From positions 1 through 64,000 of the forward strand of contig NZ_OZ034915.1 in assembly GCF_964030655.1 (NCBI RefSeq): 64,000 bases of DNA. Reading direction: 5' to 3'. The position numbers and the translations under genes are program-made. This DNA is from Spiroplasma endosymbiont of Poecilobothrus nobilitatus (GTDB lineage Bacteria > Bacillota_I > Bacilli_A > Mycoplasmatales > Mycoplasmataceae). Positions 8,516-58,277 of this stretch are shown one piece after another. The notes under the pieces were generated by a model. It made no database searches and was not told where the DNA came from. It saw nothing but the letters and a program-made list of their open reading frames with translations. Position 1 is the stretch's first letter. Each line of letters opens with the position of its first letter.

Positions 8516-9665
8516 TTTTAATTTTGTAGAAAACTCTTGATGAAATAAAAAAAATCATCAATATGATAACTTTAAAAGAAAATTATATAAACTTTTAATA
8601 TTGTTATTTAACTTTTTTATACGTTAAAATATAATACCGATGATTGTTTGTTTGGCGTTAAACCTTTATGCTGGTATTTTCATTTTCAGTGATTTAAATA
8701 ATTTTGAATGTTCGTGAAACCTAAGCCATGATAATGAATTAAGGATTCTTTAAGATTTGATTGTAATTTACTAATTTTATTTAACTTTCGATAACTAGCA
8801 TCAGAATTTGCACTAGTTTTAGTTGCTAATAAAATAGAATTTGTTTGTTTTGCTACTAATAAATATAATGGTTGCATGTCAGAAATAATAATTGAATTTT
8901 CTTTGATTAATTGTTTATTAATATTTTCAATAATTCACTGTTTTTGTAATCGTTTTGTGTTGGTTGATTTAACATAAATATTATTATTGCTATCAACAGC
9001 CATTTGAATACAACATTTAGTGTTGGTTGAAAATGAATCAAGATGAATTTTTCTTTTATCAAATTTATCTTTAAAATTACCTTTGTAGATTTCTTTAATA
9101 AATGTTTCATCAATTTGAATTTGGCCATTTAACGTTTTAAATTTTAATTGGGTGTTTTCTAATTGTTTTGATTTAATTATTTTTTGGCGATTATATCAAG
9201 CTGTTTTCGGTGATGTTTTAATAAAGTGGGAAATCATTTTACTAGATTGGCCTAATAATGAAATTTGAATCAATAAATTTCACTGTTCATAATTTAAATG
9301 ACTTCAATACGTAAAATGATCACGAAAAGCATCAAAACTAGCACGACATTTTTTGCATAAATATTTTTGTTTTCCTTCAGGATTATGACCATTTTTAACA
9401 CAATAAAAAGATTGACAATTAGGACATTTAATACTTTTATCCCTAAATTTTTGATCAATTTCATTTAAGCGTTTTTGTTTTTTAATTAATTCTGCTTCTT
9501 TTTTGACTTTTTCATGAAATTATAAAAATTGATCATCTGTTAAACTATTTATTAATTCTTCAATTATTTTTTCCATTAATTATTCACTTCTTATATTAAA
9601 AATATACCTAATTTTAGGTATATTTTATAAATATTAAATATCAAGAGTTTTCTACAAAATTAAAG
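8516..9665 (-). mobile_element. ISa copy 1 (zinc-ribbon DDE insertion sequence)
   Basis: An 1150-bp element with terminal inverted repeats starting TTTTAATTTTGTAGAAAACT and an 8-bp target duplication ATAAAAAG (8508-8515 and 9666-9673). It carries one transposase gene on the minus strand, inactivated by a stop codon. A palindrome ATACCTAA-TTTTAGGTAT (about 9604-9621) precedes the transposase start, possibly limiting read-in transcription. It sits 18 bp from the parS site. The 8-bp duplication and the zinc-ribbon enzyme suggest IS1595- or IS1-like relatives; family placement is not certain. Confidence 0.93.
8617..9576 (-). pseudogene. ISa transposase, ochre stop early in gene
   Basis: The reconstructed protein has 319 residues: an N-terminal helix, a four-cysteine zinc ribbon (CPNC ... 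CKKC), then a DDE-like core with QIDETFI and IIISDMQPLY as candidate acidic residues. In this copy the codon for Glu in QFLEFHEK (about residue 22) has become TAA at about 9518, so full-length enzyme cannot be made. The rest is open if TGA is Trp. No good in-frame restart lies before the zinc ribbon. Confidence 0.85.
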
Positions 9666-29703: not shown

Positions 29704-30378
29704 ATGACAGTAAAAAATGCAATTAATTGACGAAAAACTATTAAAAAATATAATAGTGAAAAAGTAATTAATCATGAAGATTTAACAGTAATACTTGAAG
29801 CAGGGCGCTTAGCACCTTGTTCATTAGGAATTGAAGTAACTAATGTTGTTAGTATTACAAATCAAGAATTAAAAAAGAAATTTGCTGATGAAGCAATGCT
29901 TGGATGAAATCAAGAAAAAGTGAAAAATGCTAGTTGTATAATGCTTATTACGGTTACTAATCCATCTTATTTAGTTTCAACTGAATTTTTGACAAAACGC
30001 TTAAAACGAGTTATTAATCAAGCAGATGATTTAGAAAAGACAATTAAAAAATATCAAACTTTTTTACAACAAAAAGAACATCTTTTTGCATTTGTTTCAG
30101 AACAAGCCCATATTGTGACTAGTTTTATTACAATTCAAGCTGCTGATTTAAGAATAGGAACTACTATTATGGGTGGTTTTGATGCAAAAAAATGTGATGA
30201 GTTATTAGCGAAACATTGTTCGTTTGATCAAGAAAAATATCATACAGTCTTAGCTTTAGCGTTAGGATACTATGATGAAGATGATGATAAAGCAACAATG
30301 CCGCGTGTTAGAATTGATTTTAATGAATTTGCAAAGATTATTTGGGTGAATAAAAAAGATACGGGTTTTTGTTTTTAA
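29704..30378 (+). CDS. Nitroreductase-family flavoprotein with transposon-derived C-terminus
   Basis: FMN-dependent NAD(P)H oxidoreductase family, 224 residues. The N-terminus TVKNAINWRKTIKKYNSEKV and LEAGRLAPCSLGIEV match the FMN-binding start; FSEQAHIVTSFITIQAADL-like and GYYDEDDDKATMPR close the fold. Substrate unknown. The last 11 codons (30344-30376) and the stop come from the 108-bp inverted-repeat element inserted here. Removing the element and one 8-bp duplication restores an ancestral stop immediately after ...NEFAKII. Two TGA Trp codons; the Trp made by the insert is TGG. Confidence 0.88.
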
Positions 30379-30451
30379 ATGTTATTTAGTTCAATAAATT
30401 AAGGATATTTTTTTATTGTTTTTATAAAATCCGTAAAAAATTTACTCGCCC
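30344..30451 (+). mobile_element. 108-bp MITE copy 1
   Basis: Left end GGGTGAATAAAAAAGAT, right end TTTACTCGCCC; the ends are imperfect inverted repeats of about 26 bp that both reach ACGGGTTTT-type cores. Flanked by the 8-bp direct repeat GATTATTT (30336-30343 and 30452-30459). No transposase inside. It overlaps the 3' end of the nitroreductase gene and ends 16 bp before the rpmE -35 element. Confidence 0.9.
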
Positions 30452-30467
30452 GATTATTTAATAATCT

Positions 30468-30495
30468 TTGTTTTTATTTAAATATGTGTTATCAT
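30468..30495 (+). promoter_or_regulatory. rpmE promoter
   Basis: TTGTTT (30468-30473), 16-base spacer, TATCAT (30490-30495) preceded by TGTGT giving an extended -10. Lies just after the MITE target duplication. Confidence 0.65.
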
Positions 30496-30547: not shown

Positions 30548-30853
30548 ATGGCAAAAGAAGGAATCCATCCAAAATATTTTGATACTAAAATTATGTGTAC
30601 AACTTGTGGAGCCGAGTACATAAGTGGTTCTACTAAAGGAGAAGAATTAAAAGTTGATACTTGTTCTTCATGCCATCCCTTTTATACAGGTAGTCAACAG
30701 TTTGCTAATGCAGCTGGACGTGTTGAACGATTTAAATCTAAATTTAATAAAAAAGAAGAGTTAGTAAAACAAGCAGAAAAAGCATCAAAAGCACAAAAAG
30801 AACTTAACAAAAAAACAGCGAAACCAAAATCTGATGAACAAAAAGCAGAATAA
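30548..30853 (+). CDS. rpmE: Ribosomal protein L31
   Basis: Large-subunit protein L31, zinc-binding type: CTTCG near residue 17 and CSSCHPFYTG near 37 supply the ligands. 101 residues; the L31 core (about 70) is followed by a Lys/Ala-rich tail as in other spiroplasmas. The start at 30548 follows GTGAGGTGAG; the in-frame upstream ATG at 30503 is rejected because it lies in the promoter region. Its conserved partners tdk, prfA and prmC are found further right, separated here by ISa copy 2 and two other genes. Confidence 0.95.
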   Translation: MAKEGIHPKYFDTKIMCTTCGAEYISGSTKGEELKVDTCSSCHPFYTGSQQFANAAGRVERFKSKFNKKEELVKQAEKASKAQKELNKKTAKPKSDEQKAE

Positions 30854-36621: not shown

Positions 36622-37401
36622 TTGGGTTATAAAAATCAACGTATTATTATCAAACTAATAAATGTATTAACAAGCAAGTTAATAATTATTAACAAGAAAT
36701 TATCAGTGCCTTTAATAAAAAGTCGCAAAATTTATGGGGCTCGCAAAATTAAAGTTATTTTAAACAGAAAAGATATCATCTTATCGCGGCGAAAAATCAG
36801 ATTATTTATGATCAAAAATAATTTGGTTTCTAAATACACCAAATTAAAATATCATAATCATAAAACAACAGTCAATAATGACCAAATTAATAATATTTTA
36901 AATCGTCAATTTAACAACAAAAAACCTAATGAAGTTATTGTTAGTGATTTAACATATGTTCAAGTTGGCGCTAAATGACATTATATTTGTTTATTAATTG
37001 ACTTGTTTAATCGTGAAATAATTGGTTATAGTGCTGGGCCGAATAAAACAGCCGAACTGGTCCAACAAGCTTTTCATAAAATAACACGACCATTAAATCA
37101 AATAACTCTATTTCATACTGATCGTGGTAATGAGTTTAAAAATAAAATCATTGATGAAATTTTAATAACTTTTAATATTAAAAGATCATTAAGCAATAAA
37201 GGCTGCCCTTATGATAATGCTGTGGCTGAAACAACTTACAAAACTTTTAAAACTGAATTTATTAAGGGTAAAAAATTTAAAAATTTAACACAATTAAAAT
37301 ACGAACTTTTTGATTTTGTGCATTGATATAACAATATTCGAATTCATGGCAGTTTAAATTATTTATCTCCAGTTACTTTTAGAAAACAAATGTCTATATA
37401 A
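36622..37401 (+). CDS. ISb OrfB, IS3-family integrase
   Basis: 259-residue DDE integrase core, open with one TGA Trp at 36979 and one near 37324. Catalytic motifs SDLTYV, HTDRGNEF and VAETTYKTFK present. Residues 2-33 are in a shifted frame relative to the copies at 54-56 kb: one base is missing near 36626 and one extra A near 36719 restores the frame. The frame is open back to the A6 run, so it can be joined to OrfA by -1 slippage. Confidence 0.83.
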
Positions 37402-43375: not shown

Positions 43376-43393
43376 CAATTTTTTATAATTTTT

Positions 43394-43501
43394 GGGCGAG
43401 TAAATTTTTTACGGGTTTTATAAAAACAATAAAAAAATATCCTTAATTTATTGAACTAAATAACATTTAAAAACAAAAACCCGCATCTTTTTTATTCACC
43501 C
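43394..43501 (-). mobile_element. 108-bp MITE copy 2
   Basis: Inverse orientation to the other two: starts GGGCGAGTAAATTTTTTACG and ends ...TTTATTCACCC. 8-bp target duplication TAATTTTT (43386-43393 and 43502-43509). Ends 18 bp before the extended -10 of the gene at 43564, so it occupies the -35 side. Confidence 0.9.
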
Positions 43502-43519
43502 TAATTTTTTTTAGAAATA

Positions 43520-57820: not shown

Positions 57821-57929
57821 AAATATGGTATTAAGTTTAAGTTATGATATGAAATTTAGAGAAATTAATTAAAATATTTATATTCTAATAAATATTTTAA
57901 TTTTATGCATACATAAAATCAGAAAAGTT

Positions 57930-58037
57930 GGGTGAATAAAAAAGATACGGGTTTTTGTTTTTAAATGTTATTTAGTTCAATAAATTAAGGATATTTTTTT
58001 ATTGTTTTTATAAAACCCGTAAAAAATTTACTCGCCC
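57930..58037 (+). mobile_element. 108-bp MITE copy 3
   Basis: Same orientation as copy 1 and nearly identical to it: GGGTGAATAAAAAAGATACG ... TTTACTCGCCC. 8-bp target duplication GAAAAGTT (57922-57929 and 58038-58045). Ends 12 bp before the rpsU -35 element. Confidence 0.92.
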
Positions 58038-58049
58038 GAAAAGTTTGTT

Positions 58050-58078
58050 TTGTTAAAAAAAGTGTGATAAGATAATAT
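58050..58078 (+). promoter_or_regulatory. rpsU promoter
   Basis: TTGTTA (58050-58055), 17-base spacer, TAATAT (58073-58078), 35 bases before the start codon. GATAAT at 58071 is an alternative -10. Confidence 0.6.
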
Positions 58079-58112: not shown

Positions 58113-58277
58113 ATGGCTACTGTTGTTGTCAAAGCAGGAGAACCGCTAGACAAAGCGTTAAAACGATTTAACAAGGTTTCTTCAGTTAAAAGAAAAGAAG
58201 CCCGAAAACGTGAACACTGAATGAGCAAAAAAGAAAAAAGACGTTATAAACAAGAACAATCACGTAGTTTTCGTTAA
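58113..58277 (+). CDS. rpsU: Ribosomal protein S21
   Basis: 54 residues, too short for a 60-residue cutoff. MATVVVKAGEPLDKALKRFN and the strongly basic SVKRKEARKREHWMSKKEKR are S21. The Trp is TGA at 58219. TTAGGAG lies seven to thirteen bases upstream. Own promoter and strong terminator make it a single-gene unit. S21 acts in initiation on the 30S subunit. Confidence 0.95.

Follow-up and report, generated by a model that had tools for sequence, protein, structure and literature searches.

A 108-bp miniature inverted-repeat element of Spiroplasma with ends shared by phage-like elements

The 108-bp element and its insertion sites

A non-coding segment of 108 bp, found three times in a 64,000-bp stretch of the genome of a Spiroplasma endosymbiont (the window), raises the question of what it is and which transposase moved it. 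An earlier note, made from the letters of the window, took the segment for a non-autonomous transposon with its transposase outside the window, and left the driver open. Direct reading together with a whole-genome search places the element, here MITE-A, where the note had it, at 30344–30451 on the forward strand (copy 1), 43394–43501 on the reverse strand (copy 2) and 57930–58037 on the forward strand (copy 3). Each copy is flanked by a perfect 8-bp target duplication, in forward-strand positions GATTATTT at 30336–30343 and 30452–30459, TAATTTTT at 43386–43393 and 43502–43509, and GAAAAGTT at 57922–57929 and 58038–58045 respectively. The motif GGGYGARTAAA, read by the note as the element's end, matches exactly at both sides of the three copies, and the terminal repeats are indeed imperfect and of about 26 bp. 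In copy 1 the left repeat, GGGTGAATAAAAAAGATACGGGTTTT, spans 30344–30369 on the forward strand and the right repeat, which reads inward as GGGCGAGTAAATTTTTTACGGRTTTT, spans 30426–30451 on the reverse strand; at 30371–30402 (forward strand) lies the core common to three MITE families, a part of TTTTTRTTTTTAAATGTTATTTAGTTCAATAAATTAA. Short, non-coding and bounded by terminal inverted repeats, MITE-A belongs to a known class, the MITEs.

Neighbouring features of the window include a nitroreductase-like ORF (29704–30378) that runs into copy 1, the insertion replacing its stop and adding WVNKKDTGFCF. Transposases of the IS3 family (36622–37401, above the cut-off) and of an IS1595-like family (8617–9273, just below the cut-off) are also encoded; ORFs of the same lengths recur in the window, and these may be the insertion sequences that the note called ISa and ISb.

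The genome holding the window, G000, is a single contig of 1.43 Mb and contains eight copies of MITE-A with identities of 96–100%. A perfect duplication of fixed length, 8 bp, accompanies seven of the eight; outside the window these are TATTTTTA (twice), AAATAAAT and ATAATTAA, the two TATTTTTA copies being a single site duplicated along with the DNA around it. In the eighth copy (G000:1073579) the last C and the duplication are gone, so that the pattern seen in the window holds genome-wide with this one exception. A perfect 8-mer repeat would arise by chance at a single site with a probability of about 1e-4, by our own estimate for this base composition, which excludes chance as the source of the duplications. 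The left flank of one copy (L003) carries a repeat of about 67 bp, near 1426296–1426362 of contig C1, with some 20 copies in G000 and many in the genomes G013 and G008.

Empty sites were sought for three of six MITE-A sites (copy 1, copy 3 and the L003/L004 site). The joined flanks of copy 1 are contiguous over 300/300 bp in five congeners, at 96–97% identity, and those of copy 3 are contiguous in four congeners at 93–97%; the empty sites for these two window copies, the alleles that the note had proposed looking for in related strains, hold the 8-mer once. The L003/L004 site has empty paralogs within G000 itself at 98–99%. The empty sites in relatives and the empty paralogs identify the copies at these three sites as real insertions. 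A search of 60 relatives with the 108 bp gave no full-length match, though it did yield matches to the element's end in one congener, G005; since the close relatives are empty at these sites and no full-length copy turned up in the 60, the spread of MITE-A has been recent and local. Searching plasmid and phage collections with the same sequence gave no match, and comparison with RNA families only a chance match, below threshold.

A candidate autonomous partner among phage-like elements

In G005 the first 27 bp of MITE-A are matched at two places, 26/27, and both are left ends of longer elements, of about 19.1 and 19.0 kb. The two elements are 91–96% alike, begin at the same base, start with GGGTGAGTAAAAAAGATACGGGTTTTT, terminate in an inverted relative of that end and are flanked by different 8-bp duplications, GTTAAAAC and ACCTGTTC. 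Between MITE-A and the G005 element the left ends agree at 25/26 positions, as they do for copy 1, and the right ends at 20/26, while the best match of a MITE-A end anywhere inside the element is at most 18/26. Neither the exact end pattern nor the transposase described below was found in the collections genome_contigs and viral_contigs.

The transposase encoded beside the right end of the G005 element belongs to the UPF0236 / Mbov_0401 family and is intact in one of the two element copies. It matches NF046004, the curated p-MULT 5 / Mbov_0401 profile, with 243.6 bits against a cut-off of 162, and PF06782 is also matched; the cut-off of the ISLre2 profile is missed (82.7 vs 200 bits). The D-D-E residues are invariant across 16 aligned relatives of the transposase. 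A transposase of the ISL3 family was also considered as the driver of MITE-A, and none is present in G000.

The element further encodes a terminase-like protein, assigned from weak profile matches: Terminase_3 is matched in four of the five aligned members (best 1.4e-4; the G005 member, at 0.00097, is below the Pfam cut-off) and a PHROG terminase in one distant member of the aligned set (7.4e-10), and the protein had no match among solved structures. It also has a block of genes in common, at about 50–80% protein identity, with elements in G003, G013 and G000 and, for the terminase-like gene, in the congener G002; among these, the G013 element has ends that match each other's pattern and is flanked by a perfect duplication, AAAAAAAC. 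The A-type phage, known from sequence alone, may be able to form particles.

In G000 a decayed transposase at 451.2–452.2 kb, 73% identical to that of G005, was found; the right end of this remnant, ...TTATTCACCC, is an A-type terminus, and part of a phage-element protein is encoded immediately upstream of the transposase. In the transposase tree the row for this copy, translated in a wrong frame, was disregarded. Ends like those of MITE-A are present both on the G005 elements and as a decayed cognate end in the genome that carries MITE-A. A prophage at about 1347–1367 kb of G000 has the G005-type backbone with a transposase from another subfamily, and the same structural genes with different transposases and ends are seen at L055/L054 (G005), L150 (G013) and L072/L075 (G000). 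This suggests that the transposase and ends form a module exchanged among phage elements. The A-type transposase was found in G000 only as decayed copies, none intact, so that present mobility of MITE-A is unproven.

The Spiroplasma phage MaM-2019a (OL689226, OL689227) resembles the G005 element in its length of about 19 kb, its GG...CC ends and the family of the transposase at its right end, but the transposases are only 27–29% identical, the terminase-like protein of G005 has no match in it and its ends are of the MITE-B/C type rather than the A type. Its contigs were put together from the DNA of phage-like particles of S. poulsonii (Ramirez et al., cited in PMC12453411), and particles have been published, as cited there, for the MaM type only. 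In both MaM-2019a records (L081 and L082, positions 1–150) the two element ends meet across a 5-bp spacer (ATTTT and ATAAT), an arrangement that resembles a circular transposition intermediate; in circular forms of mycoplasma integrative conjugative elements (ICEs) and their relatives the ends are reported to be 6–10 bp apart (PMC3942029, PMC6813540). Prophages of G002 have MaM-type ends and 8-bp duplications, TAAATTTA and TAATTTAT, and their transposases lie at zero branch length from those of the MaM phages in the tree; a congener's prophage with P2-type ends and an 8-bp duplication is placed in this way with MaM P2.

The mycoplasma ICEs (ICEA/MICE, p-MULT 5) have a transposase of the NF046004 family, as does the G005 element, and according to PMC3942029 and PMC6813540 they share the 8-bp duplications, the transposase gene beside one end and, with MaM-2019a, circular forms with a short coupling sequence. 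They differ from the A-type elements in being conjugative rather than phage and in an insertion reported as random (PMC3942029), and the passages of the ICE literature consulted describe no 108-bp derivatives.

It would seem highly likely that MITE-A is non-autonomous, related through internal deletion to a transposable Spiroplasma prophage, and moved in trans by the prophage transposase, mostly to promoters. The Mutator-like DDE transposase (UPF0236 / Mbov_0401) would bind the 26-bp ends of MITE-A in trans and excise or copy the 108-bp element, which would then be reinserted with formation of the 8-bp duplication, for the A-type subfamily usually so placed that the -35 box of a sigma-A promoter lies 15–16 bp downstream. 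The note's reading of a non-autonomous transposon driven from outside the window gains support from the empty alleles and from the longer elements sharing its ends, and the driver, which the note did not name, is very probably a transposable prophage that encodes a Mutator-like transposase, not an ordinary insertion sequence.

It is unlikely that MITE-A derives from, and is moved by, a small insertion sequence of that Mutator-like family, made up of a transposase and ends alone, with the prophage doing no more than use the same module. The copies at 451 kb and 1067 kb of G000 are mostly transposase with little phage sequence nearby, and ISLre2-type insertion sequences with related transposases exist (PMC3942029), which would fit such an origin, but among complete elements A-type ends occur only on the phage-like ones of about 19 kb, the 451-kb remnant has the phage-protein fragment upstream of it, and the search of the 60 relatives with the 108-bp sequence gave no short A-type insertion sequence. 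Far less probable still, and contradicted by the empty sites, is an immobile dispersed repeat, regulatory or REP-like, conserved at promoters. Most MITE-A copies do lie near promoters and a weak hairpin is possible; against this, the fold is not significant (z -1.4), the relatives' counterparts of the two window sites lack the repeat at 93–97% identity, with a single 8-mer, and the L003/L004 site has its empty paralogs in G000.

Spacing between the insertions and promoters

Copy 1 is followed by the L31 gene (rpmE, ORF 30548–30853), whose putative promoter, the putative target, is at 30467–30495 on the forward strand with its -10 box, TATCAT, at 30490–30495, 38 bp from the element end. Downstream of copy 3 is a putative promoter, TTGTTA-17-TAATAT (58050–58078, forward strand), with the -10 at an offset of 35 bp from the element end, followed by a gene at 58113–58277 that we read as that of ribosomal protein S21; no terminator was found at this copy. 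Copy 2 is an exception, with TATAAT only 21 bp away.

When the best promoter-like sequence was sought up to about 90 bp to each side of the element, the -10 lay in the offset window of 36–39 bp for five of the seven distinct MITE-A sites, at 37–38 bp from the element end with the -35 starting 15–16 bp away, and likewise for one of the two G005 phage-like insertions. Random intergenic positions give such an offset in 6% of cases, or 1.9% with a strong promoter score; the probability of five in seven is 1.5e-5. The offset window was picked after inspection, and correction for some 17 possible windows raises the value to about 3e-4; the sites are few. For MITE-B and the G008 relatives the spacing is seen in 2/12 only. 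The random insertion reported for mycoplasma ICEs (PMC3942029), a trait that does not define them, is not matched by the spacing at five of the seven MITE-A sites, a small sample.

The spacing could instead be a by-product of insertion into AT-rich intergenic DNA, or of selection against harmful insertions, with no targeting. The small sample and the post hoc choice of window, as well as the lack of such spacing in MITE-B or the other phage types, leave some room for this; the excess over the null after correction weighs against it, as does the identical spacing published for TnGBS/ISLre2, and we consider it rather unlikely. TnGBS/ISLre2 elements (p-MULT 3) are described in PMC3942029 as inserting at sigma-A promoters, about 15–17 bp ahead of the -35 box, with duplications of 8 or 9 bp; the G005 transposase differs from theirs in falling under the ISLre2 cut-off. 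The spacing in MITE-A would presumably be caused by recognition of RNA polymerase or of the promoter.

Sister families with a common core

Two further families share the interior of MITE-A. MITE-B has about a dozen copies of 108–112 bp in G000 (L009–L020, e.g. 451098–451208), and a third family has two copies in G008 (L052 and L053). The core differs at 1–3 of 40 positions among the three families, and the outer 19 bp are more divergent, with 3–7/19 differing. Some copies of the sister families have 8-bp duplications, e.g. GAATAATA, GAATTAGT and AAAAAGTT, which are imperfect or missing in others. The ends of the three families resemble those of three phage types, G005, MaM P2 and MaM P1, and the phages show the same pattern, P1 and P2 being nearly identical directly inward of their differing ends. 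None of the phage elements examined contains the MITE core, so that MITE-A is not demonstrably a plain deletion product of a known phage, and its origin by internal deletion is a proposal. It is conceivable, if improbable, that transposable phages have the MITEs as miniature satellites: a conserved core of about 37 bp would be kept because it serves some selected function, perhaps in replication, packaging or transposase regulation, the ends would be swapped to match the transposase of the resident phage, and the phage would spread, and possibly package, the element.

Like bacterial MITEs generally, MITE-A is short and non-coding, with terminal inverted repeats, target duplications and many near-identical copies; it differs from them in having a prophage as its probable autonomous partner and in being one of three families with one core and differing ends. 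The note's reading of a MITE was right, and the promoter spacing, the prophage partner and the shared interior were unforeseen by it. The phage partner, the promoter spacing and the common core with different ends appear to be new. A bacterial MITE is here linked to a phage that apparently uses a Mutator-like transposase instead of an integrase, which connects MITEs with mycoplasma conjugative elements and Spiroplasma phages. Promoter-directed insertion is suggested for a family branch that had been reported to insert at random, and one interior with three sets of ends offers a natural comparison for the joint change of transposases and the ends on which they act.
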